From: Liolophura sinensis
Taxonomy: Eukaryota; Mollusca; Polyplacophora; Chitonida; Chitonidae
Direction of reading: 5' to 3'
DNA length: 64,000 nucleotides
NCBI RefSeq assembly: GCF_032854445.1
Contig: NC_088306.1
Coordinates: 16,215,764-16,279,763, forward strand
The translations under genes were made by a program, and so were the position numbers. Below, piece after piece: positions 3,561 to 48,454 of this stretch (the first letter of the stretch is position 1; each line of letters opens with the position of its first letter). Under the pieces are notes generated by a model. The model did no database searches, was not told the origin of the DNA, and saw nothing but the letters and a program-made list of their open reading frames with translations.

Positions 3561-3918
3561 ATTATGCCTGCAACACTGTGTGACATGTAATTATCTGCAG
3601 ATAAATGCAACCTTGCCTGCAGTACATTGTAATTATGGAACAGCAAAATGTCTTATCCTTGTTTTCATCTTACACTGCTTCTCCTTGCTGTGAGGTGAAG
3701 GGCAGTGTAACTTGTGACAGATTATCCTGATGTAATGAAAGTCCGCATTTTAGGTACAACCTGTGTATCACGTAAGCAAGTCACAGTTGGTCATTTAATT
3801 TAGAGGCCAAAAAAGTCTTTTAACAGGCAGGAGTAACTCAAGGTATACCAGTATTGCCTGAATGCTGCAGGTGGAGGTACAGAACAATCATGGACTCTTC
3901 TACTGTTTTATTTTCCAG

Positions 3919-4072
3919 GAACAACTCCTGCGGCAGCACTTAATTGAAACACCCGAAGTTCCCATCTCACAGAGCCAATCCAGTGAGATGACATCTGCTA
4001 CAGACCCATTCCTGGGACAAAGCACAAACCCGGATAATCACGCTCGCCAGGAGAGCGCAGATAGTGGACTTG
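3919..4072 (+). CDS. YAP1: YAP exon with coiled-coil end and LATS site
   Basis: The exon follows a TTTTATTTTCCAG acceptor and ends at TTG|GTGAGT, in phase 1. It encodes 51 residues plus one base, beginning EQLLRQ and ending QESADSGL. The HARQES motif fits the LATS consensus. The coding frame in the preceding intron has no acceptable start, so this is an internal exon. Confidence 0.93.
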
Positions 4073-6884
4073 GTGAGTAACAGAGCATGCACACTCCACA
4101 CACTGACTGGATGCACCACGATTCACTTTATCACTCAGTTTGTGATTACTCAATATGAAAAGTAACCCTAACTAAGTAAATAGAAAACAAAGTGCATGAA
4201 GGCATGAAAAGCTTTATCTTAATTCCTCAACCTTTCCACATATGAAAGAGCAACTTACAGTGCAATTTATGCACAATTTTGATTTGATTCTGAAGACATT
4301 GGATGGGTTGGCCAATTTCAGAGCTTCACAGAAAGTATAATTTTATCAGTCTACACAGAATAATGCCTTCAGAATATGCTTGAATAAACACCTTGCAAAC
4401 ATGTGAAAAGGTTGAAGGATTACAGTACCTACACTTCATTATGTGAAAAACAACATATTAGTGATTTTTTTTTGTGCGTCTAAAGTACGTTAAGGTTGCA
4501 CTGATATCGCTATTTGTGCAGCAGCTGAAGATATAAAACTTTTTTAGTCCTAGAAAATATGACGAATGTCACTTCATTGCATATATCTGGGAGCCAAATT
4601 GCCTGCTAAACAAGTCATTGGCTCCTAAATTAACGCTTGTTATTTTTTACATAAAGGTAAAATATCAGGATTGCCTTCACTTTTTAAAGTGATATTTCAC
4701 TCTGTTTTAATGTTGTTACTACATTATATATTCACACTCACATGCTATGACGTCAGAAAAGAAACCTTTTGTTTGTGATGTTCCTATCCCAGCTCAGCTG
4801 GATGACATCATAATACAAGTTCAGTTAACTTTAACATTCCTACATGACACCACAAGATACAAGGTCATGCGAGATGTCACACTGTATACACTAGTAGTAC
4901 GTGCTTCCTCACTGTGTCAGTCCTCAATTTTTTCTAATTATAAGTCTGTGATTGTCTACAGTTAAAGCCTGGCTTAAACTTGTTTAAATACACAAAAAAT
5001 TGTCAAATTTTTCTCAAAAAGGTGAAAAATGGTAACTCGTTTTTTAATGGTTAATCGCTTTGCATCTCGTGACTGATTACTTCTACCCTCTCATTCGAAA
5101 AATATTTGTGGCATTCAACCGTCACTGTGCGATATCCTCTGTGTACTTCAAACCCCAAAGAAGTGCCTGCACATGTGTGAAATTGTGATATTTCTGTTTT
5201 ATCAGGTGGTATGGGGACCAGTTATAGTTTACCAAGAACTCCTGAAGATTTCCTACGCAACGTGGATGAAATGGACACATCAGATGGGGGTGAGTTTGTC
5301 CCTCAGAGTCAGGGGTCAATTCCACAATGCCTTTTTTTTTAGGTAATCTCAAACTATTGGCATCATTGGTTTAGATATACATATATATACATATTTGTCT
5401 TAGCATGACATTTGTGAGGTCTGAGAGCAGAAGCATGTAAATAACAGATTTTGGCTTTGCCAAACTAGTATTGTGGAATTGACAGTCATCCTGAGGCCAG
5501 TTTCATTTTGGGAAGTGTGATGGTTCGGGCTCCAAACCCAACCTTGGACAAGTAATTTCTAGATTCTTCCTGCTAGTTGTACGTGACAAGGTGGGATTTG
5601 ATACCTGACTTTGTCCTTGTTAGTCTACTTATTTGCAGGCTTCAACTTACTGGTATTCATATTACAAATGTTAGCTCAAACAGCAAAGAACAGCTTGTAG
5701 GCCAGAAAATTTATCTTTTGTATACTACATATTTCTCTACAGTACTAGATGTTTGTGTGTGTTTTCTGGTTGACAGGACACACGAGTAAAGTACTTGGAG
5801 ATTTTGGCAGTATGGATATCGGCCCATTGGCAGATGGAGGAGACACCACGGATATGGATGGAGACAACTTAGTACCCAGTTTACAGGTATACACTTTGTC
5901 TCAAGTTACTACCCTAAATTCTGAACAAATTCCACCTGTGAAGTGTAACTTCAGATGCAATTTCAAAACAAAACTTGTTAGATTTTGAAGACTGAAATGT
6001 GCTCGTTAGGTAGGGGCACATACGGATGTACCAGAAATTATAAATAAATCAGGCACTACATTTATATCTGTGGTGGATGAGGTGGTTGGATAGCATGCCA
6101 GCGCAGCGCAATGACCCCCCCAATGTCTCTCACCAATAGCCATATTTGGGAGAGTGTGACAGCAACCTGCGGATGGTTGTAGGTTCCCCCCAGGTTCTAC
6201 CCGTTTGCCTCCCACCGTAATGCTGGCTGCCATCGTATAGGTGAAATATTCTTTCACTACGGTGCAAAACACCAATGAAATAAATAAAATAATGTATCTC
6301 TGTAGTCAAACTTGGTGAGGATTTAGGGTTGTGGGTACACTTGTACCCCAACATCAGGACGATTGTTTCATTTTTGTTCGACAGAAATGATATTATCAGT
6401 TCACAAAATTATCACGAATGTGATGTTATCTTAAAATATCTTAAAATAATGATCTTGAAGTCATGTATACTAATATTTGCTTTATCAAAGTGCATGTACA
6501 TATGACAGGAAGATGTCAATGTGTTAAAGACAGTACATGTGTCTCAAAGTTTGTGAAATCTTGAGATCTTAGTCATAAAACATTACTTTTGTTGCTGAAA
6601 TTTACATTCGTCTCCCAGGATATCACCTTACTCCAAACAAACCTCAAAACCCTTTTGAAAGCTCAATACCACTCAGAGTTGGGCAAAAGGAGGAACTTTG
6701 TGTAGGAAATCACACGATTCTATGTCACATTCAGTATTAAATTGTGTTGTTGCTGTCTTCAAATAATCATGATTGATTGGTCCATATTTGTTTTCGACAG
6801 GAGGTGATAAGCAGTGACCTGCTTCACGACGTGCAGAGTGTGCTAAGCACACCCAAGATGGACAATCCTATGACCTGGTTGTGA
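3919..6884 (+). CDS. YAP1: Transcriptional co-activator YAP/Yorkie, C-terminal 143 residues (5' partial)
   Basis: YAP is the Hippo-pathway effector that enters the nucleus and activates TEAD factors. Joining 3919-4072, 5206-5289, 5777-5886 and 6801-6884 gives an open frame of 143 residues ending in TGA. Every junction is GT-AG and the phases agree (1, 1, 0). The exons show, in order: an EQLLRQ stretch matching the end of the YAP coiled coil; a DPFL motif; HARQES, a LATS-kinase HxRxxS site equivalent to human S381; DSGL, the phosphodegron core; SYSLPRTPEDFL followed by VDEMDT, the transactivation signature; DNLVPSLQ and SSDLL; and the terminal PDZ ligand TWL. TEAD-binding and WW domains are expected upstream. 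The product could be called YAP1, TAZ or Yorkie, because invertebrates usually have one orthologue. Confidence 0.95.
4216..4432 (-). repeat. TIR element, family B, inside YAP intron
   Basis: Ends TTAATTCCTCAACCTTTC and GAAAAGGTTGAAGGATTA form imperfect terminal inverted repeats. The interior (reverse orientation) matches copies at 11879, 13589, 19756 and 50290. No transposase frame is present, so it looks like a miniature non-autonomous DNA element. Confidence 0.6.
5206..5289 (+). CDS. YAP1: YAP exon with SYSLPRTPEDFL motif
   Basis: The acceptor is TTTTATCAG and the donor GGGG|GTGAGT. The exon is 84 nt, entering and leaving in phase 1. It encodes the motif equivalent to vertebrate SYSVPRTPDDFL, including the tyrosine known as a c-Abl target in vertebrates, and then VDEMDT of the activation domain. 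Confidence 0.93.
5777..5886 (+). CDS. YAP1: YAP exon, acidic activation region
   Basis: The acceptor is TGGTTGACAG and the donor TTACAG|GTATAC. The exon is 110 nt and leaves in phase 0. The segment is rich in Asp and Gly and ends DNLVPSLQ, matching the vertebrate EELMPSLQ region. Confidence 0.92.
6066..6298 (+). repeat. tRNA-derived SINE, family 1, in YAP intron
   Basis: A tRNA-like head (GGTTGGATAGCATGCCAGCGC) leads into the conserved body (CAACCTGCGGATGG, GTGAAATATTC, AAAACACCAATGAAATAAATAA). The copy is diverged and lies in the intron just before the last YAP exon. Confidence 0.75.
6801..6884 (+). CDS. YAP1: YAP terminal coding exon with PDZ ligand
   Basis: The acceptor is TTTTCGACAG. 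Twenty-seven codons and TGA encode EVISSDLLHDVQSVL and end in PMTWL. The C-terminal TWL is the PDZ-binding motif conserved in YAP proteins and fixes the end of the protein. Confidence 0.95.
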   Translation, partial: EVISSDLLHDVQSVLSTPKMDNPMTWL

Positions 6885-14865: not shown

Positions 14866-15103
14866 TTTTATTTATTTATTTGAATGGTGGTTCATGCCGT
14901 ATTCAAGAATATTTCACTTATACGACGGTGGCCAGCACAATGGAGGGAGGAAACCAGGCAGAGCCCAAGAGAAACCCACGACCATGTGCACGTTGCTGCC
15001 AGACCTTCCCACGTACAGCCGAGAGGAAGCCAGCATGAGCTGGACTTGAACTCAGAGTGACCGCAGTGGTGAGAGGCTCCTGGGTCATTATGCTGCGCTA
15101 TCC
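14866..15103 (-). repeat. SINE family 1 with target-site duplication
   Basis: The reverse-strand element is bounded by direct repeats ATCATCTGA at 14857-14865 and 15104-15112, consistent with retroposition. The tRNA-like head is cut short at TGCGCT, so this copy was 5'-truncated on insertion. Confidence 0.75.
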
Positions 15104-16009: not shown

Positions 16010-16440
16010 CATGAAATGGGAAATGCCTTGGTTCACGCTGTGACCCACTGTGACCTGTTGTACCCACTGTACAACTTGTAACATCATCGACAAATTATCT
16101 GGTGCTCAATCTGAGATATCAAGAAACAGGAAATGCCTTTGTTCCAGCTGTGACCCGTTGTACTCACTGTACAACTTGTAACATCATCGACAAATTATCT
16201 GGTGCTCATTCTGAGATATCAAGAAACAGGAAATGCCTTTGTTCCAGCTGTGACCCGTTGTACTCACTGTACAACTGGTAACATCATCAAACAAATTATC
16301 TGGTGCCCATTCTGAGACATTATGAAACAGGAAATGCCTCTGTTCCAGCTGTGACCCATTGTACCCACTGTAGAACTTGCAACATAATCAACAAATTATC
16401 CAGTTTCCAATCTGAGACATCACAGAATTGAAAATACCTC
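16010..16440. repeat. Tandem repeat of about 100-110 bp, four to five copies
   Basis: Units begin near AAATGCCTT at about 16021, 16131, 16231 and 16332. They contain GTTCCAGCTGTGACCC, TGTACAACTTGTAACATC and ACAAATTATCTGGTG. The array lies about 300 bp beyond the ZNHIT1 stop codon, probably within its 3' UTR. Confidence 0.85.
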
Positions 16441-16739: not shown

Positions 16740-16761
16740 TCATGCTGTCCACTTTAAACAT
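16740..16761 (-). CDS. ZNHIT1: ZNHIT1 terminal coding micro-exon
   Basis: The acceptor is TTCCACGCATATTCCAG. Joined to the AG left by the previous exon, 22 nt encode R-CLKWTA and TGA. The last zinc ligand (C156) and the conserved Leu-Lys-Trp-Thr tail are here, so this tiny exon is essential to the fold. Confidence 0.88.
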
Positions 16762-19700
16762 CTGGAATATGCGTGGAAGAAAAAACAAATGAAATCAAAA
16801 TTGATTCTGGCATAGTAACTTTTGTTCATTTATTTTACTTGTTGGTAACTGCAAGAATATTCTCAGGTGGTGTTTGCTTTTAGCCTTTTTAGAAAACTGC
16901 AGTGTGCAAGGATTTAAAACCATGAAACCATGCCAAGTACCATATTTTGTCTTAAAAATTGGCCCTAAAAAGGTGCAACTTCAGAAACAAATATATTTCC
17001 TATTACATTACTTTTGGTGCTCAATCTTTAAATGTTCCTTGTGCACTATTATCATACCTTCCAAACAAAACACAAAACATCACACTGAGATGAATAGAAT
17101 AAAGATATGGCAAAACTGTACATGTCTAATTAGAGTTTTATCAGTACAAAGAGCTGCCTCATCTGGTATCCCTGTGTGTCCCCAGACACCTGACACTGCT
17201 GTACCTTGTGCCACACTGTACACATGTGTAATTACAGTATTTCAGTACAAAGAGCTGGCTCACCTGGTATCCCTGTGTGTCCCCAGACACCTGACACTGC
17301 TGTACCTTATGCCACACTGTACATATGTGTAATTACAGTATTTCAGTACAAAGAGCTGGCTCACCTGGTATCCCTGTGTGTCCCCAGACACCTGACACTG
17401 CAGTACCTTGTGCAACACTGTACACATGTGTAATTACAGTATTTCACTACAAAGAGCTGGCTCACCTGGTATCCCTGTGTGTCCCCAGACACCTGACACT
17501 GCTGTACCTTGTGCCACACTGTACACATGTGTAATTACAGTATTTCACTACAAAGAGCTGGCTCACCTGGTATCCCTGTGTGTCCCCAGACACCTGACAC
17601 TGCTGTACCTTATGCCACACTGTACATATGTGTAATTACAGTATTTCAGTACAAAGAGCTGGCTCACCTGGTATCCCTGTGTGTCCCCAGACACCTGACA
17701 CTGCTGTACCTTGTGCAACACTGTACACATGTGTAATTACAGTATTTCAGTACAAAGAGCTGGCTCACCTGGTATCCCTGTGTGTCCCCAGACACCTGAC
17801 ACTGCTGTACCTTGTGCAACACTGTACACATGTGTAATTACAGTATTTCACTACAAAGAGCTGGCTCACCTGGTATCCCTGTGTGTCCCCAGATACTGTA
17901 CCTGACACAGCAGTGCTTTGTGCCACACTGTACACGTGTAATTAGAGTTTTGCCAGTACAAAGAGCTGCCTCACCTGGTATCCCTGTGTGTCCCCAGATA
18001 CTGAACCTGACACTGCTGTACCTTGTGCCACACTGTACACATGTGTAATTACAGTATTTCACTACAAAGAGCTGGCTCACCTGGTATCCCTGTGTGTCCC
18101 CAGACACCTGACACTGCAGTACCTTGTGCAACACTGTACACATGTGTAATTACAGTATTTCACTACAAAGAGCTGGCTCACCTGGTATCCCTGTGTGTCC
18201 CCAGATACTGTACCTGACACAGCAGTGCTTTGTGCCACACTGTACACGTGTAATTAGAGTTTTGCCAGTACAAAGAGCTGCCTCACCTGGTATCCCTGTG
18301 TGTCCCCAGATACTGAACCTGACACTGCTGTACCTTGTGCCACACTGTACACGTGTAATTACAGTATTCCAGTACAAAGAGCTGCCTCACCTGGTATCCC
18401 TGTGGGTCCCCAGATACTGTACCTGATACAGCAGTGCTTTGTGCCACACTGTACACGTGTAATTAGAGTTTTGCCACTACAAAGAGCTGCCTCACCTGGT
18501 ATCCCTGTGTGTCCCCAGATACTGAACCTGACACTGCTGTACCTTGTGCCACACTGTACACATGTGTAATTACAGTATTTCACTACAAAGAGCTGGCTCA
18601 CCTGGTATCCCTGTCTGTCCCCAGACACCTGACACTGCTGTACCTTGTGCCACACTGTACACATGTGTAATTACAGTATTTCACTACAAAGAGCTGGCTC
18701 ACCTGGTATCCCTGTGTGTCCCCAGACACCTGACACTGCTGTACCTTGTGCCACACTGTACACATGTGTAATTACAGTATTTCACTACAAAGAGCTGGCT
18801 CACCTGGTATCCCTGTGTATCCCCAGATACTGTACCTGACACAGCAGTGCTTTGTGCCACACTGTACACGTGTAATTAGAGTTTTGCCAGTACAAAGAGC
18901 TGCCTCACCTGGTATCCCTGTGGGTCCCCAGATACTGTACCTGACACAGCAGTGCTTTGTGCCACACTGTACACGTGTAATTAGAGTTTTGCCAGTACAA
19001 AGAGCTGCCTCACCTGGTATCCCTGTGGGTCCCCAGATACTGTACCTGACACAGCAGTGCTTTGTGCCACACTGTACACGTGTAATTAGAGTTTTGCCAG
19101 TACAAAGAGCTGCCTCACCTGGTATCCCTGTGTGTCCCCAGATACTGTACCTGACACTGCAGTGCCTTGTGCCACACTGTACACATGTGTAAATACAGTA
19201 TTCCAGTACAAAGAGCTGTCTCACCTGCTATCCCTGTGTGTCCCCAGACACCTGACACTGCAGTATCTTGTGCCACACAGTACACATGTGTAATTAGAGT
19301 TTTGCCACTACAAAGAGCTGCCTCACCTGGTATCCCTGTGTGTCCCCAGACACCTGACACTGCAGTATTTTGTGCCACACGGTACACATGTGTAATTAGA
19401 GTTTTGCCACTACAAAGAGCTGCCTCACCTGGTATCCCTGTGTGTCCCCAGACACCTGACACTGCAGTACCTTGTGCCACACTGTACACATGTATAATTG
19501 GATGGAAAAGTGAGAATGGTCAAGGAAACACACAACTATTTGCACATCGAGAAAGCCATGTTTCGAACCTAGTCTGGCATATCTGTATTTGTATTTTTCT
19601 TAGCTTTTATACTGTTATAATACATATACTAATTAGTATTTATGGGACAAAAATGAGAGATGGATCTGCTCCAACAGGTGAAATGTTTTGTCCCACCAGC

Positions 19701-22700
19701 TGATCTCTTTTACTGCTTCCGTGCACGAAACAGAATCTAGTTTCTACATCATACTGTTGAATTTTTCAACCCTTTTGCATGTTTGCAAAGTTTGCAAGTT
19801 ATTCAAGCAAATTCTGAAGACATTATTCTGTGTTGAATGAGAAAATTATACGTTTTGTGAAGCCCTGACACTGGTCAATCCAACCAATGTAGTTTTGTCT
19901 CTAATATCCAATTAAAAACACTGAAAGTTGCTCTTTCATACATGAAAAGGTACAGAAATTAAGGTAGGATGAGACTGTCCATCATTACTTTTCTTTCACG
20001 CAGTGTACATGTACATGGGGTATTAGGAAAAGTGATAATCCTTTTCGCTCATTTCTGCTTGAGCTGTCTTACTGCTTAAGTGTTCTGAGTGACCCGACAC
20101 TCAAGTGCACAAGCAAATAAAACTAATAACATAATCTACTGTATAGGACTGGACCCTGACGAAACGTAGACAAAACAGGATATCCACAGACAGCACAGAA
20201 ATGTCTCTCGGGAAATGGTGATTGCGGCGTACAGGCAGACATGTAGTTAGGCGCTTCACGAACTCCCATTTGCTGCAACAAGAAAATCAAGGACTGACTG
20301 AGTGACTGAGTGAATCACTACTTACATATTACTCAGGCTTCTAGTCGACCTTGACCTCAAGAACAAATGGTTAACAGTTCCACCAGGGGAGAAATCTTTT
20401 ACTTGAAAATGCAGATGGATTGGAGTCTTTTGCAGTGAATGTCAGATTGTTAAAATAGAATATCTAGATACACTACTCAGCCTATTAACCTAGTAGCCAT
20501 GAAACTAATCAAATAAATAAATAAGTATATGAATATGCATCACCTCCTCTTCTATGAGAGCAGAAAAGTTTTTCTTCAGCCTCTGTTTGATGTATTCCCC
20601 TCGTGAACGCCTTTTCTTCTTCGCAGCAGAGCTGGCTAAAAATGCAAACACAAGGAAGATGAAAACATTAATTACTCATACGGACAGTTTTATTTCAATA
20701 TAGTGTGATGGCAGCCAATCACTCTCAACGCTGACATGTTCATAGTGTTGCTTTAATGACACATGATGTTGACACATTCACAGCTCTGCCTCACAGGAAC
20801 ACAATGCTGACACATTCATAGCACTGCCTCACTGGAACACAATGCCCACACATACACAGCACTGCCTCAATGAACACAATGCCCACACATACACAGCACT
20901 GCTTCACTGGAACACAATGCTCACACATTCACAGCGCTGCCTCACTGGAACACAATTCTGACACATTCCATTTACAGTGTTGCCTAAGTGCAACACTATG
21001 CTCACACATTCACAGCCCTGCCTCATTGGAACACAATGATGACCCATTCAGAGCGCTTCCTCACTGGAACACAAAGCTCAAACATTCACAGCGCTGCCTC
21101 ACTGGAACACAATTCTGACACATTCAATTCACAGTGTTGCCCAAGTGCAACACAATGCTCACAGATACAAAGCGCTGCCTCACTGGAACACAATGATGAC
21201 CCATTCACAACGCTTCCTCACTGAACACAATGCTCACACATTCACAGCGCTGCCTCACTGGAACACAATGCTCACACATTTACAGTGCTGCCTCACTGGA
21301 ACACAATTCTGACACATTCCATTCACAGTGTTGCCCAAGTGTAACACAATGCTCACACATTCACAGCGCTGCCTCAATGGAACGCAACGATGACCCATTC
21401 ACAGGGCTTCCTCACTTGAACACAATGCTCACACATTCACAGCGCTGCCTCACTAGAACACAATACTCACACACTCCATTCACAGTGTTGAATAGGTGGA
21501 ACATAATGCTCACACATTCACAGCGCTGCCTCACTGGAACACAATGCTTACACATTCACAGTGCTGCCTCACTGGAATACAGTACAGACACATTCCATTC
21601 ACGGTGTTGTCTATAACTATTTATATAACAGATTATATAATACACCAAATCACACCTATTATACAAACACCAAGCAAGTCAGTAAACCCTTGTTTGTTCT
21701 GGGCACCAGGCATGGAAATGCATATACATGTAGCAAGGCTGAGTGTACAAATCCTTTCATATCACCTGTCCTTATCTGACCTGACCTCACCACTCAGAGC
21801 CAAGATCATGCACTTTGGACTGGAAAATATGAACTTTTTGATGTCTCATTGTCACTCTGCTCTTCACATACATACATCAACATTGTAAATGTTACATTTG
21901 TTCTGGGTTAAACAGAATAAATAGTAAATACCAGATGACCCGATTTCCATGGACTCCTCAAACCTTGGAGCCTTCTTGCTCATCTTGAGGTCAGCGTGAG
22001 GGTCATCTTGGAAATTGTCCTGCTCCAGTGCCTCAAGTGCTTTACGAGCGCGACGTCTTCTTGCAGCCTCATCCAACACACGCTTCTGCTGCACCTCTCT
22101 AACACGAGCTGAAACATTCATAAACATCAACAAGCCACGCTAAACAAAAAACACCTTAGATCTGCAACTCGTCATAAAAGGGTTACCCAAAGACATGAAG
22201 TTGTTTTCAAGGAATGCTTTGGACAACTCAAGTAAAGAGCTTTTGTATCGATGTTATTTGAGACCATTTACATGTTTACAAGCCAAAGGAACACATTCTA
22301 AAACAGCACATTTCCATTCAGTACAAGCCAAATTTCTCTGACTGTTCAATTTTGTTGACTGTTGACATTTTAATATAAAATCAAAATATAAACACTTGCT
22401 ATGCATCTTGTTTCATGAAATGGAGAGCTATGAAAAGATAAACTAACAAAATAGGCCTACTTTAACAAAGAACAGGACTACACTATGGTCATCACTCAGT
22501 TATTTGTTACTTTATCATGGAAGAATCTATGTTAGTAGTAGTACGACAAACAATGGCTGCAGCCTAACTTTACAACACTGTGTTTGCTTTGACAAAGAAA
22601 TAGATGTTGTTGTTGTTGTTTCACATTCTCGTGAAAACAAAAATATCAAAGAATTATTATCAGCCAAACGGTGAAACTCAGAGCAGGGCGTATGTAATAA

Positions 22701-22808
22701 AGAGTCAAAGGGCCAGCAAAACAAAAATTTCATCCATCAGCAGTTTTAAAGGAACAACAAATACAAAAAAAAATTTCTCTCACAAGATTCACGTTTTTCC
22801 GCCGCCAT
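16740..22808 (-). CDS. ZNHIT1: Zinc finger HIT domain protein 1 (SRCAP/SWR1 complex subunit), complete
   Basis: ZNHIT1 (p18Hamlet; yeast Swc6/Vps71) is a nuclear subunit of the remodeller that deposits histone H2A.Z. Joining 22808-22784, 22108-21932, 20635-20544, 20272-20184, 19509-19429 and 16761-16740 gives 162 codons including TGA (161 aa; human 154). Visible motifs are QQKRVLDEAARRRR, LEALEQDNFQDDPHA, the basic KKKRRSRGEY, LKKNFSALIEEE, APNYMSAC, and the HIT finger with ligands C124, C127, C135, C138, C143, C147, H151 and C156. The protein ends RCLKWTA (human RCLKWTV). All phases agree. The fourth intron is of the minor AT-AC class. The fifth contains about 22 extra copies of the zinc-finger exon. 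The gene is divergent from DNAJC19. Confidence 0.95.
17158..19495 (-). repeat. Minisatellite made of about 23 tandem copies of the ZNHIT1 zinc-finger exon
   Basis: The unit of 101-107 bp contains, on the minus strand, TACACATGTGTACAG, TGTGGCACAAGGTAC, GTCAGGTGTCTGGGG and GATACCAGGTGAG, which is exon 5 of ZNHIT1 plus its donor and about 25 bp of intron. I count 23 GGTATCCCTG-type landmarks on the plus strand, from 17164 to 19429. Two main subtypes exist. One is close to the exon. The other carries GTCAGGTACAGTATCTGG, a 5-bp insertion that breaks the frame, and ACACGTGTACAG, a 2-bp loss. The rightmost unit is the functional exon. The leftmost has a mutated donor (CAGATGAGG). Confidence 0.93.
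19429..19509 (-). CDS. ZNHIT1: ZNHIT1 exon 5 (zinc-finger core; founder of the tandem array)
   Basis: The 81-nt exon begins directly after CATTCTCAC and ends ACCAG|GTGAGG in phase 2. It encodes FPSNYTCVQCGTRYCSVRC and then LGTHRDT, with five cysteine ligands and one histidine. It is the only one of about 23 similar segments that has the upstream minor-class branch site and the FPSN codons. Confidence 0.92.
19510..20183 (-). other. ZNHIT1: Minor-class (U12-type) AT-AC intron of ZNHIT1
   Basis: The 674-bp intron starts GG|ATATCCTGT and ends CAC|T. A TTTCCTTGAC element places the branch adenosine 10 nt before the acceptor C. These match the U12 consensus ATATCCTTT and TTCCTTRAC. Joining here gives CGFPSNYTC with no gap against human CGFPSPYTC. 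A family B TIR element (19756-19972) sits inside the intron. Confidence 0.85.
19756..19972 (+). repeat. TIR element, family B, in ZNHIT1 U12 intron
   Basis: The left end AATTTTTCAACCC, right end GAAAAGGTACAGAAATTAAGG and interior CCAACCAATGTAGTTTTGTC match the other family B copies. It lies between the donor and branch site of the AT-AC intron. Confidence 0.6.
20184..20272 (-). CDS. ZNHIT1: ZNHIT1 exon 4 (first half of zinc finger)
   Basis: The acceptor is TTGTTGCAG. The exon encodes EAPNYMSAC and HFCAVC, with the first two zinc ligands. It ends TGTGG in phase 2 directly before ATATCCTG, a U12-type 5' splice site. There is no good GT donor at the position where homology stops. Confidence 0.92.
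20544..20635 (-). CDS. ZNHIT1: ZNHIT1 exon 3 (basic region)
   Basis: The acceptor is TTTTTAG and the donor GAGGAG|GTGATG, ending in phase 0. The exon encodes SSAAKKKRRSRGEYIKQRL and then KKNFSALIEEE, matching the human KKKKTRG...RKNFQALLEEQ segment. Confidence 0.93.
20755..21612. repeat. 38-bp minisatellite in ZNHIT1 intron 2
   Basis: About 22 copies of a unit containing CACATTCACAGCGCTGCC and TCACTGGAACACAATGCT. A variant unit with CATTCCATTCACAGTGTTGC recurs about every 160-190 bp, giving a higher-order period. Open frames through it are a product of the repetition. Confidence 0.9.
21932..22108 (-). CDS. ZNHIT1: ZNHIT1 exon 2 (conserved N-terminal motif)
   Basis: The acceptor is ATGTTTCAG and the donor TCTG|GTATTT. 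The exon is 177 nt, phase 1 in and phase 1 out. It encodes VLDEAARRRRA, the arginine-rich helix, and DNFQDDPHADL, which is nearly identical to human ZNHIT1. Confidence 0.95.
22784..22808 (-). CDS. ZNHIT1: ZNHIT1 exon 1 (start codon)
   Basis: ATG begins MAAEKRES and the donor is TCTT|GTGAGAG, in phase 1. I chose this start because it is the only ATG-led segment with a good donor that joins the next exon in frame. The peptide parallels the human MVEKK start. The context on the coding strand is AATAATGG. Confidence 0.85.
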
Positions 22809-23201: not shown

Positions 23202-26200
23202 GTGAGACATTTGCTGAACTTCACAAATCGATCATTCGGCTAGTAAAGTATCGAAAACTGGCGCACCAGTAGTCCGAGTAGTATGTTGATAAATACATGT
23301 ATTTGGATGGACGCTGGTCAAAACGCCAGCTAGATAAGTCAAAACGCCTACTGTTTTTGTAGAGGTTTAAAAATAGCCCCCCTCCCTCTCTCTCTCACAT
23401 AGAAACCATTTACATATGAGTGATGCAGAAAAGTATATTTGTTGCACATTTTTTAACATATGATCGACTTGCAGAGTTCTTTGCAGGAGAGACATCCAAA
23501 CCTCTTCTTAAAAGAAGTGGCGAATTAATTCTCTTTTTTACTGAAATGATAATAACTAGTCAAGACTTTTCAATAATTAACTTCTCAATAGTCCGAGATT
23601 GCTCTGACGTTGCCTTGAGAGCGCTTCATTTAAAACCTGGTGCAGTTACCTGCCTTTGTCAAATATGTCGAGGCTGTCAGTACAGCTGTTGGCTTTGGGC
23701 ATTATCAAGCCTGCACATTTAAGTCTGTGGGGACTACTTAATACTTAATTTTTTCGGGTAACAACCTGGCACGGCAGTTGCAATAGCTTTTTGAATGAAA
23801 CGTGTTCTGACGCTGGTTTGGGGCCATCCTTGGCCGAACAAAATTTTGCCATACCTAATGTCCGAGCAATCTTGAACTGCTTCTCAAAGGAGTGAGGAAC
23901 CCATTTCAATTTTGTTTTTATGTGCTGTCTTCTGTCTATAATCATAGTTTGTTCTTCCGACAAACGCATTGAAAAATGGTGAAAAAACTCCATCATTGTG
24001 TTGTTGTTGTAATGTTTTGATTGATATACGAAGCCCAGGAGGTATAAAAATGAAAATTATAAGATTGCGAATCTAGCTCTTACATCAATTGTAAAATAAA
24101 TTCTTTTTACACACTTTTTGAATGAAAGTCAAGCAAAACACAGTATTGTTTTATTGTCTTCCACGTCCTTAGAGAATGGCTTTTACACCTTTGTCTTTAA
24201 GTGACATCAGGGGCTTGGGAAGCTAGAAGCCTTTATTTAATAAGATGACTGATATGTGCACCCTGAGAAGCTATATCAGACATTACAAATTGATCATGTT
24301 TATTCAGTTATCATGTAATGGTAAACATACCCTAATTCTTCTAAAATTTGGGACAGATAATAGTAGTGTTGAAAGTAGAATATTACATTTCTTTACCAGC
24401 CTTTTGACAAAGTAAGGATTTGAGTATTTTGTTCATTAGATGGTTCAGCCATGTGAGAAAAAAGAAACTCAATATTCCTGCTAGAATTACATATATATTG
24501 GCTAAAATGAGCAGATCAGGTGTTTAAAATTTTAGAAGAAATAGGGTATGCAACATTACAGTAAATATATTGCATATAATTGTGGATGTTATTCATCAGG
24601 AATCGTTTCTAAGTAATCGGGAAGTTATTTTTGTCCATATACATGATTTTACGTCCAAGAATACCATGGCGGGCACACAACATATCAGGCCTTATGGTTT
24701 CCACTTCCAGGTATTTTGGCTACCATTGACCTACATTCATTTGGATATGCCATAACCGCTAACGTCAGATGAATGTCAGAATTTTAATGTATTAAACTCC
24801 ATACAGATGGCGTAGAGTGGAATATATAAGGGTTATTGTGTACATGGATGAACTGAGAGGCGAGATTTATTTATTTATTTATTTATTTGATTGGTGTTTT
24901 TACGCCGTACTCATAAGAATATTTCACTTATACGACGGCGGCCAGCATTATGGTGGTGGAAACCAGGCAGAGCCCGGGGGAAACCCACGACCATCCGCAG
25001 GTTGCTGGAAGACCTTCCCACGTAGGGTTGTAGAGGAAGCCAGCATGAGCTGGACTTGAACTCACAGCGACCGCATTGGTGAGAGACTGCTGGGTTATCA
25101 CGCTGCGCTAGCGCGCTAACCAACTGAGCCACGGAGGCCCCTGAGAGGCTAGAAACACAGTTGGTACCTGTTTTGTACTGCAGACATCACCTATCAGACT
25201 AGGCATGAAACATTATTCGGTTACCATTGCTTGTCGGCTTTCCACAGTAGCTGTGATACTCTGCCAGTCATATAAAAAGAGGAGCTGAAATATCCACCTG
25301 GGGTTTGTTTTAATGGACTGTAAATATACAGCTGGTTGTACATGTAACTGAAAAAACTTCGTACAATATATCTGACAAAGTCAGTTATCTAAATATGTGC
25401 CCTCGCTGTGAGCTCAAGTCCAACTCATGCTGGCTTTCTCTTCATCCGTAAGTAAAAAGGTCTGCCAGCAAGCTGCAGATGGTCTTGGGTTTGCCACTGA
25501 GCTCTGCCAGGTTTCCTCCCACCATAGAGCTAGCTGCCGTCGTATAAGTAAAATATTGTTTAGTAAGGTGTAAAACATGAATGAAATAAATAATAAATAA
25601 AATAAATAACAATAATCAGCAAAAAATTACAGCGTTTTTTTTTTTTTTTGGTGAGATCTATCACAAAAACATCAGTTCAGACATACATGCATTGTTATGT
25701 AATACAGGTTATGTACTGTGGTCTGGTAAATGTGTAACAATTGTTTCTGTTTTATTTTCAGTCTACAGGTCTTATAATTGCAGGCCTAGGCATAGCTGCC
25801 GTGGGATTTGCAGGTTGGTTGTGTTTGTGAAGATGATCATGAATAAATGGTTCTTCAGCACTTAGGTTGATGATTTCAGTATGTGTTTTGTGGATTTAAT
25901 GTGATTTGTTCAAGATCTTATGTACAATTACATTATGTTTCACACATAATGTTTCAGCCTAATGTTACTCTCCTACAAGAGAAGCTTTTCAACATACATA
26001 AGTATTAGTTACTTCCCTTTTCAAGGATTTACCCCCCTTGACAGTATGTATCAGTTCATCTATCCAATGCTGTTAGCATGTGGAGGTATCAGTGTGATGG
26101 AAGTTGTGACTACCTGTAATCCACCTGAGAAATGTTTGTAAGCTTAACAGACAGGTGAGAGATCTTCCTTCGTGCTGTCACTCTAATCACCTCAGCAACA

Positions 26201-29104
26201 GAAGCCCCACAAGGAAAAATACATTTGTGATTTTAATGGAATTGTATCTACAAGTATTGTTTATATCTTTATCTGTAATGTCTGTGTAAAGGAGGACATT
26301 GGTAAATACTATTCACATGTTTTTTGGTTTTTTTTTCTACTTTTTAATCAGGCCGCTATGCTTTTCGTTATGCTAAAGTCGCTCAGGAATCCCTGAAGAA
26401 ACAAATGAATGCTTTACCCAACTCAGGGGTGAGTCTGAACCAGCATTGATGTACAGTTTCACAGATTTTGCGGATAGTGTTAGTTCTGATGACAAACAAA
26501 TCTGTTATTGAAGTTGTAAACAGAACATTATTGAGGTATTCAACTTAACTATTTCAGTGCATGTGGACTCAGTGATTCCCATCACTGAAGGTGATTAGTG
26601 TAGGATCCAGGAATTTTTGGAAAAAATTTTTGAGTCCTAATTTGAATTTTGGAGAAATTGTAACCCAGCGCAGCAAAACGGACAAAAATAGCCAAAGGTC
26701 TAGAGGCCACAGATTTTGTGCATGCTTTGAAATGCATTCTTCGCCATTTTAAGCTACATGGATTTCTGTGCATATCATGAAAGGTACATCCCTGACATCT
26801 AGCAGACAGTTAGTCCTACGATTTATGAATTGGAACAGTGTAAATATTTATGCTTTTTAATTTCCTAGCTATGTGTATGTATTTATCAATGACAGGAATT
26901 TGATTTTTTCCAAATTTTTGCCCATTTGATATTTGGGCGGACATAACAAGATCCATGACCGTACAGTCAGTTTTTTTAGTAGATAATTCACATCTGGTTT
27001 AACAAATAGTTTTAACATTACTTTGTCATTTTGGAATTCGTAATAGTAATTGTTTGCTGCATTGTATCCTTGCAGGCTTTCAGTAAATATTACAAAGGAG
27101 GATTTGAACCCAAAATGTCGAGAAGAGAAGCTGGACTGATCCTGGGAATAAGGTGAGTTATTTGGAATACATAGGCCAGGTTTCCCCAAAATTTCTACAA
27201 CGACTGGTTGAACCGTATCAGTATAATGGCTTGGGCAGGGCAGCTTACTTGCCTTCGATAAGGCATCTCAGTGAAGCATCTCAGTGAAGCAGCACTAGAT
27301 AAAAGACCTGTGGAACTCTGTAACAAGGAGGCACATTACGTGCACTGTAAGGATTCCTTCATCGTCATATGACTGAAAAATGGTTAAATACGACGTTAAA
27401 CCCCAAGCACACACTCACTCACCAAAATTTCATAAATCCAGTTAACTGTGGTAGTTTAGGCTATTTGGAAGTCCCACATGGAGAAAGCCTAACACCATAT
27501 TTCAATAGGATTTTGATGAATAACACTATTTCACCGATATAACTGAAAATTTCTTGAAAAACAAAATCTTCGGCTGTGTCCATAAAATTTTCCTGATGTG
27601 CCATGATAATATTCCGTGTATGACGTCAAATCAGGCAGATGTGACGTTGAGTTAGGCATTTATGCTGGGATGACGTCAAGAGCGTTTGTAAGGGCAGCGT
27701 CATTGGTGGATATACATCGGCGATTGATGATGTCATGCGTTCGTGGGTGACATCACACCAGGCCAAGTGGAAGGGACAAAAATATTTTATTTCCATATAC
27801 TCTGACGACACGTACAGTATCGGTTTTAATTCGCTGCAATATTTTCACGATTTAGGAAAGCAATTTAGACTATCCCAGTCTTTATCAATTCACCTTGCTT
27901 TTAAAACACAGATGTTTGGACACCAAAGTAGCTCTTTAAGTAAATCACTTCTGCTTTAAAAAAAAAAAGAACCCCTGTGAAACTGGGCTCAGATGTAGTA
28001 AGTAATGGTTATCCCAGAGAGTGACCCAAACAACAGCGTCAAGGGAGTGCTTGTATGTTCCTCATCAAGCTCGTCTTGGAATGGATCTCTCGATGCCTCA
28101 GCTGCGGCTGGAAGTCATAAAGTTTGCCTGGTACATTGCACATGGTTAAGGTTAGTTGTTTACTCCGGGCAGTCCAGTTTCATCAACCCATTTAAGGCTA
28201 ACCACTGTCATAGAAGTATCAAAAAAGTGTGCCATTTACACCTGTAAATGGAGTAAATGTGTAGTTCATTTTACAATTGGAATGTTATCTGTCTGCTTGC
28301 AGCCCATCAGCCAGCTCAGCCAAGGTGAAGGAGGCCCACAAGAGGATCATGCTGGCGAATCACCCAGATAGAGGTGTGTACTCACACATATTCCCATACT
28401 ACAGCTACACAGAAAATCATTTCCTACTGGAACCAATTAATTGCAGTCTGGGACCAGCCATTGTCAATTTGGGATCAACCAGTAACAATCTGGAACTAAC
28501 CATTGACAATCTCAGTAGCAACCTGGGACCAATCAGTGGCTATCTGAGACTAGCCAGTATCAATCTGGGTCCATTCAGGGTCAATCTGGGACCAGTTAGT
28601 GACATTCTTTAACCAGTGACATTTTAAGACCAGCTAGTGACAATCTGGGACCAGTCAGTGACAATCTGATACCAGTCAGTGACAATCTTATACCAGTCAG
28701 TGAAAATCTGGGACCAGTCAGTGACAATCTGGGACCAGGCAATGACAATCTGGGACCAGTCAGTGACAATCTGATACCAGTCAGTGACAATCTGGGACCA
28801 GTCAGTGACAATCTGGGACCAGCCAGTGACAATCTGGGACTAGCTAGTGTCAGTCACTATCTGGATAAAGCTGAATACAGGCTGGGCACATCCAGTAATG
28901 GTCTTGGTCCAATAATAAACACAACAGTAATAATAATAAGAGAAAAAAACTGTAACAGTTGCATAAGTTCAAAGTTGTGTAATATAACAAGCAAGGATCA
29001 GTCAGTAAATAACGGACAATTTTTTTCTCATTTTAGGAGGATCTCCATACCTGGCTGCTAAGATCAATGAAGCTAAAGATTATTTGGACAAGCACAAACA
29101 CTGA
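23199..29104 (+). CDS. DNAJC19: DNAJC19/TIM14 (Pam18), mitochondrial import motor J protein, complete
   Basis: DNAJC19/Tim14 sits in the mitochondrial inner membrane and stimulates the ATPase of mitochondrial Hsp70 at the TIM23 channel. Joining 23199-23201, 25762-25813, 26352-26428, 27076-27152, 28303-28373 and 29037-29104 gives 116 codons with stop (115 aa; human 116). Residues 4-19 form the transmembrane segment ([16 protein letters not shown]). [19 protein letters not shown] opens the J domain. HPD at 90-92 is the Hsp70-activating triad. [16 protein letters not shown] closes helix III. All junctions are GT-AG with consistent phases (0, 1, 0, 2, 1). Introns carry SINEs, a TIR element and a 21-bp minisatellite. 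Confidence 0.96.
24328..24551 (+). repeat. TIR element, family C
   Basis: CATACCCTAATTCTTCTAAA at the left and AATTTTAGAAGAAATAGGG at the right are terminal inverted repeats. The interior has no coding frame. A second copy in opposite orientation lies at 34868-35093. Confidence 0.7.
24862..25140 (-). repeat. Full-length SINE family 1
   Basis: This is one of the best-preserved copies, on the reverse strand. From its own 5' end it has GGCCTCCGTGGCTCAGTTGG (tRNA box A), then GTGAGTTCAAGTCCAGC (box B), the body, and an (AAAT)n tail. Direct repeats CTGAGAGGC at 24853-24861 and 25141-25149 mark the target-site duplication. Confidence 0.85.
25399..25612 (+). repeat. SINE family 1, 5'-truncated
   Basis: Starts inside the tRNA-like part (CGCTGTGAGCTCAAGTCC) and runs to an AATAAATAATAAATAAAA tail. 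Confidence 0.75.
25762..25813 (+). CDS. DNAJC19: DNAJC19 exon 2 (transmembrane segment)
   Basis: The acceptor is TTTTATTTTCAG and the donor GCAG|GTTGGT, in phase 1. Seventeen codons encode [17 protein letters not shown], a single hydrophobic helix that anchors the protein in the inner membrane. Confidence 0.93.
26352..26428 (+). CDS. DNAJC19: DNAJC19 exon 3
   Basis: The acceptor is TTTTTAATCAG and the donor TCAGGG|GTGAGT, in phase 0. The exon encodes [17 protein letters not shown] and NALPNSG, the linker between membrane helix and J domain that follows GRY in this family. Confidence 0.93.
27076..27152 (+). CDS. DNAJC19: DNAJC19 exon 4
   Basis: The acceptor is ATCCTTGCAG and the donor ATAAG|GTGAGT, in phase 2. 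The exon encodes [20 protein letters not shown], almost the same as the vertebrate protein, and begins J-domain helix I. Confidence 0.95.
27197..27421 (+). repeat. SINE family 2, 5'-truncated, in DNAJC19 intron 4
   Basis: From CAACGACTGGTTGAACCG through TCAGTATAATGGCTTGGGC and GACTGAAAAATGGTTAA to CAAGCACACACTCACTCACC. The tRNA-like head is missing. A short internal duplication (CATCTCAGTGAAG twice) is present. Confidence 0.8.
28303..28373 (+). CDS. DNAJC19: DNAJC19 exon 5 (HPD motif)
   Basis: The acceptor is GTCTGCTTGCAG and the donor TAGAG|GTGTGT. The exon encodes [20 protein letters not shown] and then PDR. The HPD triad is intact, so the J protein should be able to stimulate Hsp70. Confidence 0.95.
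28415..28860. repeat. 21-bp minisatellite in DNAJC19 intron 5
   Basis: About 21 copies of AGTGACAATCTGGGACCAGTC with variants. Because the period is a multiple of three, it stays open in several frames, but it lies between two J-domain exons and is bounded by proper splice sites outside it. Confidence 0.92.
29037..29104 (+). CDS. DNAJC19: DNAJC19 terminal exon
   Basis: The acceptor is TCATTTTAG. The exon encodes [18 protein letters not shown] and KHKH before TGA. The [14 protein letters not shown] signature is typical of Tim14. Confidence 0.95.
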
Positions 29105-29423
29105 TGGACGTCTAACTTGTATATTGTTTATATCCAAAACTTTGTGTACAGTCCATAAATCTGATATCAGTATGATCTGGATCACAGATATATGGTTTAG
29201 AAACAATTTATTTTCAGAAAGTAACATGTAAGATCTAATTTCGCCTTCTACTTCAAGAATGCTATTAGTAAATATTCTCGTCAATAGAAGTCCATTTCTA
29301 AGTTGTGTTTTTGACACTGGTTGAACTTTACTGCATCTGTGTTTCCAGACTTTCTGAGTTTTCCAGCCGTTCACAAGATGTGTTGAATCATTTGCCTTAT
29401 GCTAAGAAGATTGGTCTTTTGAT

Positions 29424-29685
29424 TTATTGATATATTTATTTATTGGGTTGGTGTTTAGGCCGCACTCAAGAATATTTCACTTATACGATGGCGGCCGCCA
29501 TTATGGTAGGAGGAATCCGGGCACAACCCGGGGAAAACCCACGACCATCCACAGGTTGTTCACAGACCTTCCCACATATGGCTGGAGAGGAAGCCAGTAT
29601 GAGCTCACAGCAACCGCATAGGGGGAAGGCTCCTGGGTCATTACAATGCGCTAGTGCGCTAACCAACTGAGGCACGGAGGCCCCC
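29424..29685 (-). repeat. Full-length SINE family 1 with 13-bp target-site duplication
   Basis: The element lies between direct repeats TTGGTCTTTTGAT at 29411-29423 and 29686-29698. On its own strand it opens GGGCCTCCGTGCCTCAGTTGG and ends in an ATAA-rich tail. It lies about 320 bp beyond the DNAJC19 stop, so it may be part of that gene's 3' UTR. Confidence 0.9.
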
Positions 29686-36111: not shown

Positions 36112-36474
36112 AGTGAGTGAGTGCTTGGGGTTTAACGTCGTACTCAACAATTTTTCAGTCATATGACGACGAAGGAATCATTAGGGTGCATGCACGTGTA
36201 ATGTGCCTCCTTGTTGCAGGACGGATTTCCACCGCTCTTTTATTTAGTGCTGCATCACTGAGACGACTTACCGAAGGCAAGTAAGGCGCCCCGCCCGAGC
36301 CATTATACTGATACGGGTCAACCAGTCGTTGCACTATCCCCTTCATCCTGAACGCCAAGCGAGGAAGTTACAACTTCCTCTTTTAAAGTCTTAGGTGTGA
36401 CTCGACCAAGGATTGATCCTGGATCTACCGGTCCCGAAGCGGACGCTCTACCAACTGTGCTATCCGGGCCGGTC
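36112..36474 (-). repeat. SINE family 2, second of a serial pair, young copy
   Basis: Flanked by CTTGAACAAAG at 36101-36111 and 36475-36485. It is very similar to the copy at 46289-46652 on the other strand, suggesting recent activity. Head: GGCCCGGATAGCACAGTTGG as read on the reverse strand. Confidence 0.88.
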
Positions 36475-37689: not shown

Positions 37690-38700
37690 TACACCACTCG
37701 TATCTTTTATTGCTTCTTACTGCCCATAGTGCTCTACTCCACCTACATCCTTTATTGCTTCTTACTGCCTATAGTGCTCTACTCCACCTACATCCTTTAC
37801 TGCTTCTTACTGCCTATAGTGCTCTACTCCACCTACATCCTTTACTGCTTCTTACTGCCTATAGTGCCCTACTCCACCTACATCCTTTACTGCTTCTTAT
37901 TGCCGATAGTGCTCTACTCCACCTACATCCTTTACTGCTTCTTATTGCCGATAGTGCCCTACTCCACCTATATCCTTTACTGCTTCTTATTGCCGATAGT
38001 GCTCTACTCCACCTACATCCTTTACTGCTTCTTCTTGCCGATACTGTTATACTCCACCTACATCCTTTATTGCTTCTTACTGCCTATAGTGCTCTACTCC
38101 ACCTACATCCTTTACTGCTTCTTACTGCCTATAGTGCCCTACTCCACCTACATCCTTTACTGCTTCTTACTGCCTATAGTGCTCTACTCCACCTACATCC
38201 TTTACTGCTTCTTACTGCCTATAGTGCCCTACTCCACCTACATCCTTTACTGCTTCTTATTGCCGATAGTGCTCTACTCCACCTATATCCTTTACTGCTT
38301 CTTATTGCCTATAGTGCTCTACTCCACCTACATCCTTTATTGCTTCTTATGGCCTATAGTGCTCTACTCCACCTACATCCTTTACTGCTTCTTACTGCCT
38401 ATAGTGCTCTACTCCACCTACATCCTTTACTGCTTCTTACTGCCTATAGTGCTCTACTCCACCTACATCCTTTACTGCTTCTTACTGCCTATAGTGCCCT
38501 ACTCCACCTACATCCTTTACTGCTTCTTATTGCCGATAGTGCTCTACTCCACCTATATCCTTTACTGCTTCTTATTGCCTATAGTGCTCTACTCCACCTA
38601 CATCCTTTATTGCTTCTTATGGCCTATAGTGCTCTACTCCACCTACATCCTTTACTGCTTCTTACTGCCTATAGTGCTCTACTCCAAACATATCTTTTAC
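37690..38700. repeat. 45-bp minisatellite with long open frames
   Basis: About 22 units containing TACTGCCTATAGTGCTCTAC and TCCACCTACATCCTTTACTGC. The period is 15 codons, so a 379-codon frame (37642-38781) encodes a hydrophobic 15-residue repeat and a second frame is open for 408 codons. No splice context, promoter or known family is visible, so I treat it as satellite DNA first and a coding candidate second. Confidence 0.92.
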
Positions 38701-43785: not shown

Positions 43786-43931
43786 AACTGGGAAGGTCTT
43801 CCAGCAACCTGCAGATGGTCGTGGGTTTCTTTTGGGCTCTGCCCGGTTTCCTCCCACCATAATGCTGGCCGCCGTCGTATAAGTGAAATATTCTTGAGTA
43901 TGGCATAAAACACCAATCAAATAAATAAATA
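43786..43931 (+). repeat. SINE family 1, 5'-truncated
   Basis: From ACTGGGAAGGTCTTCCAGC through GGTTTCCTCCCACC and GCCGTCGTATAAGTG to ATCAAATAAATAAAT. Well preserved body. Confidence 0.8.
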
Positions 43932-46288: not shown

Positions 46289-46652
46289 ACCGGCCCGGAT
46301 AGCACAGTTGGTAGAGCGTCCGCTTCGGGACTGGTAGATCCAGGATCAATCCTTGATCGAGTCACACCTAAGACTTTAAAAGAGGAAGTTGTAACTTCCT
46401 TGTTTGGCGTTCAGCATGAAGGGGATAGTGCAACGACTGGTTGACCCGTATCAGTATAATGGCTCGGGCGGGGCGGCTTACTTGCCTTCGGTAAGTCGTC
46501 TCAGTGAAGCAGCACTAAATAAAAGAGCGGTGGAAATCCGTCCTGCAACAAGGAGACACATTACACGTGCATGCACCCTAAGGATTCCTTCGTCGTCATA
46601 TGACTGAAAAATTGTTGAGTACGACGTTAAACCCCAAGCACTCACTCACTCA
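46289..46652 (+). repeat. Full-length SINE family 2, young copy
   Basis: Direct repeats TTCAATACTGAA at 46277-46288 and 46653-46664 bound the element. It opens CCGGCCCGGATAGCACAG with tRNA boxes A (TTGGTAGAGCG) and B (GGATCAATCC), and ends ACGTTAAACCCCAAGCACTC. It is close to identical with the copy at 36112-36474. Confidence 0.92.
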
Positions 46653-47579: not shown

Positions 47580-48454
47580 TGAGTAAAATCTCAAAGAGGT
47601 AGTTTCAAACTGAAGGTAGGCAAACCCCACCAAGATTAGTGTAGATTTTTTCAGAAGTTGGAGTGCTTACACACATTACCAGATAAACTCTCTCATTTGT
47701 AAATGATGATAAAATTAGTGCCGGCATTCCCATCTGACAATTCTGTAGACAGTAGCTCCGTGAAAATTGCACTCTCTGGCAACCACACCCACTTTCTCCC
47801 TGATTGGCAACTCAAGTTGTTTTGGCCGGAACACAAATTTTCTTAATTAACCCTGGAAGCCAGTATTAATTGAAGATGGAAGAGGGTATTAGGGTGAAAC
47901 TGGTATATTTTTCCGACCCCTTTATAACCAACCCTGTCACCATTTTGTACAAGTGCGTAGGTTGAAAAAGAAAACATTTGGATCATGGGTCGGATGTTAA
48001 TACCTCTTAATCAAATTTGCAATGACTGTTTTCCTTTTTTGAGCTTGAATGTGTTGTGGGCAGAAAAAGAAAGGCTTCCTCATGTGGTGTAGCTTTTCTC
48101 ATTGCCACATACATTTTAACGGGAATTTTTTGGCGTAGGTTCTTAAACTGCTTGTCAGGGGTCGAAAGAGGCGGCATTCCAAGCCTTGAAGAGCTCGTGC
48201 CAGCTGTCCAAATTTCCACGTGCCACTGATGTTTTTTTGGCCACAGAATCTCCCACCTTGTGTGGCCACACGCCACGGTTTTGTATGTTTTGTGCGTTCT
48301 TTGGCGAGAGGTTTCACTTACTACATGTCACCCCATTACTTCATGCTAGGCGATCTCTTCAGAGTCGTGTGCACAACATAAATTCCTTCCATACCGTAGC
48401 ACCTGTTGAGCTTTGTAATAAGTGTGCATGTTTCTTTTCCACTTCTCTCTGATT

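Follow-up and report, generated by a model that had tools for sequence, protein, structure and literature searches.

Tandem repeats that span an exon-intron boundary have been described in lancelets as "mirages" and are reported there in the Adh3, globin, troponin C and PGBD5 genes. AG/GT signals are present in many of the lancelet units, which are said not to disturb normal splicing, and copy number varies among globin haplotypes and in Adh3 (PMC3087553, PMC3902484). Mirages have also been proposed as a route to new introns (PMC3087553). Here we describe a repeat array at an exon-intron boundary of the ZNHIT1 gene in the chiton Liolophura sinensis, located within a 64,000-nucleotide stretch of DNA that is referred to below as the window.

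Like the ZNHIT1 array, the mirages of the lancelet globin genes BflGb6 and BflGb9 are minisatellite-like boundary duplications in which splice signals are copied and the authentic exon lies at one edge (PMC3087553). BflGb6 carries 6 or 3 units of 150-160 bp at the 5' part of exon 2, and BflGb9 a single 157 bp duplicate at the 3' boundary of exon 2 (PMC3087553), whereas the ZNHIT1 array has 23 units of 101-107 bp, lies at an exon 3' boundary, belongs to a mollusc and adjoins a minor-class intron. Splicing of both globin genes is reported to be normal by RT-PCR (PMC3087553); for ZNHIT1, normal splicing is suggested by the annotated protein. The lancelet Adh3 and troponin C mirages are likewise tandem repeats over splice junctions, reported to give no aberrant mRNA; Adh3 is reported to show length instability, even somatic, and its units measure 10-72 bp, compared with 101-107 bp in ZNHIT1 (PMC3087553, PMC3902484). 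In lancelet PGBD5, imperfect 60- and 108-bp tandem repeats lie over the 5' and 3' splice sites, and the 108-bp repeat is close to the ZNHIT1 unit in length but is a triplication, as against 23 copies (PMC3902484). In human segmental duplications, too, genes contain variable internal tandem repeats that change the structure of the gene, and some of these lie at exon-intron boundaries; the average over all such repeats, boundary or not, is a 30-bp unit present four times (PMC2812944). These human repeats are linked to changed exons and introns (PMC2812944), whereas the annotated ZNHIT1 protein keeps its usual sequence. Among the literature matches listed, which mostly lie outside subscription papers, only the two lancelet papers and the human one appeared relevant by title and the start of the abstract, and no boundary minisatellite in a mollusc or beside a minor-class intron was seen.

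A ZNHIT1 gene with an intron of minor-class type

Six minus-strand exons in the window splice into a 161-aa ZNHIT1 product, identical over its full length to the annotated protein P0001, "zinc finger HIT domain-containing protein 1-like [Liolophura sinensis]". Their coordinates, and those of the intron between exons 4 and 5, are as follows (slashes in sequences mark splice junctions).

22784..22808, minus strand: exon 1, with the start codon; codes MAAEKRES plus 1 nt
21932..22108, minus strand: exon 2 of the gene model
20544..20635, minus strand: exon 3 of the gene model
20184..20272, minus strand: exon 4, ending ...TGTGG/ATATCCTG
19510..20183, minus strand: intron 4, AT-AC, of minor-class (U12) type; the implied splice reproduces the annotated protein exactly
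19429..19509, minus strand: functional exon 5, 81 nt; codes FPSNYTCVQCGTRYCSVRCLGTHRDT, the first and last codons being split; its last 71 nt belong to repeat copy 1
16740..16761, minus strand: coding part of the last exon; codes CLKWTA and the stop, and supplies the final Cys of the HIT finger

The protein scores 47.7 bits against Pfam zf-HIT (cut-off 24.7). Its PDB matches include the ZNHIT1 chain 8x15_L (E 8.3e-57), which we take to be the human-type protein, and more weakly the Vps71 chain 6gej_S (E 3.8e-4), presumably the yeast type. A HIT zinc finger together with full-length similarity to ZNHIT1 places it in the ZNHIT1/Vps71 family, and we regard ZNHIT1 as a conserved chromatin gene whose product belongs to a chromatin complex. 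The gene, its peptide and the GTGAG donor had been correctly recognised in a preliminary description of this DNA. The same description spoke of a terminal micro-exon; the exon is indeed the last one, running from 16761 onward with 19 coding nt and the stop codon, but it is not an internal micro-exon. The Cys that it contributes is presumably a zinc ligand of the HIT finger. Since the spliced product agrees with P0001 letter for letter, the annotated mRNA is implied to join the donor of copy 1 to this last exon.

In the minor-class AT-AC consensus, the 5' site is of ATATCC type, the branch motif TTCCTTRAC lies roughly 10-20 nt upstream of the 3' site, and the intron ends in AC. Intron 4 begins with ATATCCTG, ends in ...CTCAC and contains the branch motif TTCCTTGAC at 19527-19519, with 11 nt between the branch A and the 3' site; the 25 nt upstream of exon 5 contain no AG dinucleotide. 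In 5' site, branch motif, spacing and AC end, intron 4 thus has the hallmarks of the minor-class (U12) AT-AC type, which the preliminary description had not noted. Splicing of exon 4 to exon 5 yields CGFPSNYTCVQC, and the same letters occur in the three other molluscan proteins compared. Molluscs are among the groups named as relatively enriched in minor introns (PMC10639083).

A repeat array spanning the exon 5 donor

Exon 5 runs directly into a tandem array, which fills most of the following intron.

17132..19499, minus strand: tandem array of 23 units, each made of the exon-5 3' end, the donor and an intron stub; 22 lie beyond the functional one
17116..17131, minus strand: edge stretch AATTAGACATGTACAG, within 3 edits of AATTATACATGTGTACAG in exon 5; candidate microhomology of the founding duplication, or remnant of a last copy

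The array was delimited in three ways. TRF reports it at 17120-19499 with a period of 101, 23.1 copies, 92% matches and a score of 3403; cutting at an AATTA anchor gives units of 101-107 bp that fill 17132-19499; and cutting at the donors gives 23 units with a donor-to-donor spacing of 101-106 bp. The estimate of about 23 minus-strand copies of 101-107 bp that prompted this analysis is sound, as is the placement of some 22 extra copies in a single ZNHIT1 intron: 22 units lie beyond the functional copy, in intron 5, and the portion of the array inside that intron makes up 86% of it. The position of the functional exon is corrected to 19509-19429, and its last 71 nt belong to copy 1.

Each unit comprises the last 71 of the 81 nt of exon 5, the donor CAG/GTGAG and 30-31 nt of intron 5. 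The unit had been described as the ZNHIT1 exon itself. Exon 5 sequence and donor are indeed present, but what is repeated is the junction of exon 3' end, donor and intron, with only the last 71/81 nt of the exon. Because the unit starts 10 nt inside exon 5, the first 10 nt of the exon and the acceptor and branch site of intron 4 are not copied. The donor reads CAG/GTGAG in 22/23 units, and so in 21 of the 22 extra copies; the last unit has CAG/ATGAG. Tandem units of minisatellite size, a real exon-intron junction at one end of the array and splice signals in many copies are among the features of a mirage. Judged by these sequence features, the array is a mirage-type minisatellite whose unit straddles the exon-intron boundary, a kind known from lancelets and seen here in a mollusc.

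Two rival explanations concern the nature of the array itself. One, to which we give next to no chance, is an unrelated satellite or transposon-borne repeat resembling the exon by accident, an outcome against which the preliminary description had itself warned. Tandem repeats are plentiful in the window (35 TRF rows, some overlapping), but exon 5 aligns to the rest of the array with a score of 132, whereas 200 dinucleotide-shuffled exons reach at most 33, and the array is continuous with functional exon 5. The array has no match outside itself in the 64-kb window, and a 2338-bp stretch of it searched against the window's own assembly (609,464,459 bases, 632 contigs) gave one match, itself, in a search that scored only the best candidates and skipped very common words and so sets a lower bound for repeats. 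Dispersal to other loci, as expected of a genomic satellite or transposon, was thus found neither in the window nor in the 609-Mb assembly search.

The other explanation, that one or a few true copies were inflated by misassembly, is very improbable in our judgement. Tandem repeats are commonly misassembled, the published L. sinensis assembly (very probably the window's own) rests on HiFi coverage of 14X, and four pairs of units are identical. Against this, 19 of the 23 units are distinct, several subtypes with indels can be told apart among the copies, and HiFi reads, at 8,347 bp on average, are longer than the 2.4-kb array. An assembly artefact is an unlikely source of the array; the copy number is that of one haplotype, as assembled.

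Donor strength and decay of the copies

All GT sites in the ZNHIT1 gene (n = 590) were scored against the 9-position donor consensus. Only 22 reach 8/9 or more, and all 22, among them the functional donor, are array units; the gene model has three other major-class donors, which score 6/9. Measured from the exon 5 acceptor, the first array donor lies at 81 nt, the next at 183 nt and the last at 2246 nt.

The copies have drifted. Copies 2-23 are between 0.79 and 0.96 identical to copy 1, and mean pairwise identity among units is 0.87. Adjacent copies are modestly more similar than in shuffled order (99/5000 permutations score as high). A higher-order repeat was considered and rejected, as mean identity by lag (1-11) varies only from 0.858 to 0.900, with a modest nearest-neighbour excess. 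Among copies 2-23, invariant alignment columns number 51/76 in the exon part, 20/31 in the intron part and 71/107 overall. Exon and intron parts are thus similarly variable, and nothing in this pattern indicates that the copies are maintained as coding sequence. For selection on the decoy donors, likewise considered, there is no evidence, invariance being alike in the two parts of the unit.

It is barely credible that the copies serve as alternative or cassette exons to diversify the HIT finger. A good donor ends 21/22 extra copies, and an AG is seen by eye 53 nt upstream of the donor in the 101-bp units; however, the copies have neither the minor-class branch site nor the acceptor, and the annotated protein uses none of the extra copies. 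By-eye counts show that the 71-nt exon length is kept in 12/22 extra copies and that a 5-nt insertion shifts or scrambles the frame in the other 10/22. A Cys or His is lost in 8 more, so that frame and all five Cys/His of exon 5 are intact in only 4/22 (translations, also counted by eye). Because 18/22 extra copies have lost the frame or a Cys/His, alternative coding exons are unlikely.

The frame at the end of exon 5 bears on the outcome of mis-splicing. The last codon of the exon is split as AG/, and reading past the donor by eye gives AGG TGA. Use of a later donor or retention of the intron therefore places a stop right after exon 5, and the protein made from a later donor lacks CLKWTA and with it the last Cys.

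Putative mode of splicing of exon 5

These features suggest that the array is a passive mirage, a reading to which we assign a probability of about 0.8. The minor-class 3' site of intron 4 is present once, upstream of copy 1, and exon definition would pair it with the closest major-class donor, at 81 nt. The 21 donors beyond it, which are similarly strong and lie at 183-2246 nt, would be passed over, and the array would be removed together with intron 5. Errors, whether by use of a later donor or by retention, would bring in the stop after exon 5 and cost the last Cys, and their products would probably be degraded. Splicing at copy 1 agrees with the annotated protein P0001, a match at the protein level. 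We also count in favour of the passive reading that splicing is reported to be undisturbed in lancelet mirages with copied splice signals.

U1 is known to protect introns from premature 3' end formation. The array might accordingly be functional, its strong U1 sites behind the minor-class intron helping to define exon 5 or protecting intron 5 from premature 3' end formation, with copy number tuning ZNHIT1 output; we give this a small chance. A U1-bound major donor downstream is reported to enhance minor-intron splicing (PMC8034651), and the best donor-like motif of the gene, CAG/GTGAG, is retained in 21/22 extra copies. The donor columns are nevertheless unremarkable in copies 2-23, where 71/107 columns are invariant overall, so that the intact 8-mer can be explained by recent common descent. 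Slightly less probable is the narrower proposal that selection or co-option has turned the array into a bank of about 22 strong U1 sites, which would raise U1 occupancy by exon 5 and aid the minor spliceosome on intron 4. If it were true, the length of the array, which is expected to differ between alleles, would set the amount of complete ZNHIT1.

Candidate founding duplication

The far edge of the array offers a clue to its origin. On both strands of the window, no sequence outside the array other than AATTAGACATGTACAG matches exon-5 AATTATACATGTGTACAG with 3 edits or fewer. AATTAGACATGTACAG starts at 17131, in the position expected for the end of one unit, and the first and last copies share one subtype of intron stub. 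In the simplest reading, which we infer from these edges, a founding tandem duplication would have occurred between AATTATACATGTGTACAG in exon 5 and AATTAGACATGTACAG, about 100 bp into intron 5, so that the intron received the 3' end of exon 5 together with the donor. The array would then have expanded to 23 units by slippage or unequal exchange, with drift and partial homogenisation of the units. Alternatively, AATTAGACATGTACAG may be what is left of a terminal copy that has decayed, which would look the same as a founding microhomology.

Additional repeats and features in the window

Two further minisatellites accompany the exon-5 array, making three in or beside this one short gene.

20772..21613, minus strand: minisatellite with a 38-bp unit in ZNHIT1 intron 2, separate from the exon-5 array, its unit weakly resembling the exon-5 unit
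16048..16427, minus strand: array of 3.8 copies of a 100-bp unit, past the ZNHIT1 stop codon, in either the 3' UTR or the flank, with no match to the exon-5 array

The unit of the intron-2 array and the donor region of exon 5 have CCA-GTGAGGCAGC in common, and 13/1000 shuffles score as high. Comparison of 11 larger arrays with the window tied none of them to an exon, ZNHIT1 being the sole gene modelled; for 8/11 there were matches outside or at the edge of the array, nearly all adjoining the array itself. Two plus-strand frames of a 45-bp-unit array at 37702-38686 (21.9 copies) stay open over 399 and 428 codons. Such long open frames are permitted by a unit length that is a multiple of three, and a Pfam scan of one of the two gave no match. 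A 62-bp unit is repeated 23.2 times at 48802-50241, and a diverged relative lies some 300 bp ahead of that array, at 48421-48516.

One dispersed repeat, whose length and number are SINE-like, gave 21 BLAST rows in the window, the query included.

24851-25190, 14867-15100, 29421-29684 and 43789-43931: examples of the SINE-like repeat, from BLAST

A second dispersed repeat occurs at 36151-36473 and 46289-46611 (97% identical). It contains, at 36398-36469, the one borderline tRNA-like match that an Rfam scan of the window returned; a tRNA scan of the window returned none.

Seven window ORFs had no Pfam match; one of these consists of ZNHIT1 exon 2 and its surroundings, outside the finger. On the plus strand, last-exon-like stretches at 28303-28373 and 29037-29104, which in our view resemble a DNAJC19-like protein, flank an intron with a 21-bp-unit array; by eye this array does not look exon-derived, and the ORF around 28303-28373 gave no Pfam match. 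Also on the plus strand, an open stretch at 3862-4077 ends in RQESADSGLGE and has no Pfam match; we take it to resemble the C-terminal part of YAP/Yorkie.

Discussion

The array at ZNHIT1 places boundary-spanning minisatellites in a mollusc, beyond lancelets, and at a conserved chromatin gene. Both of its edges are visible, the candidate founding microhomology included, which makes the birth of such arrays testable by comparison among chitons: if the microhomology origin is true, a chiton intron 5 that is free of the array would carry AATTA.ACATGTACAG about 100 bp after the donor. The locus also constitutes a natural test of donor choice, in which a single minor-class acceptor is followed by 22 near-identical major-class donors, of which the nearest alone completes the zinc finger.
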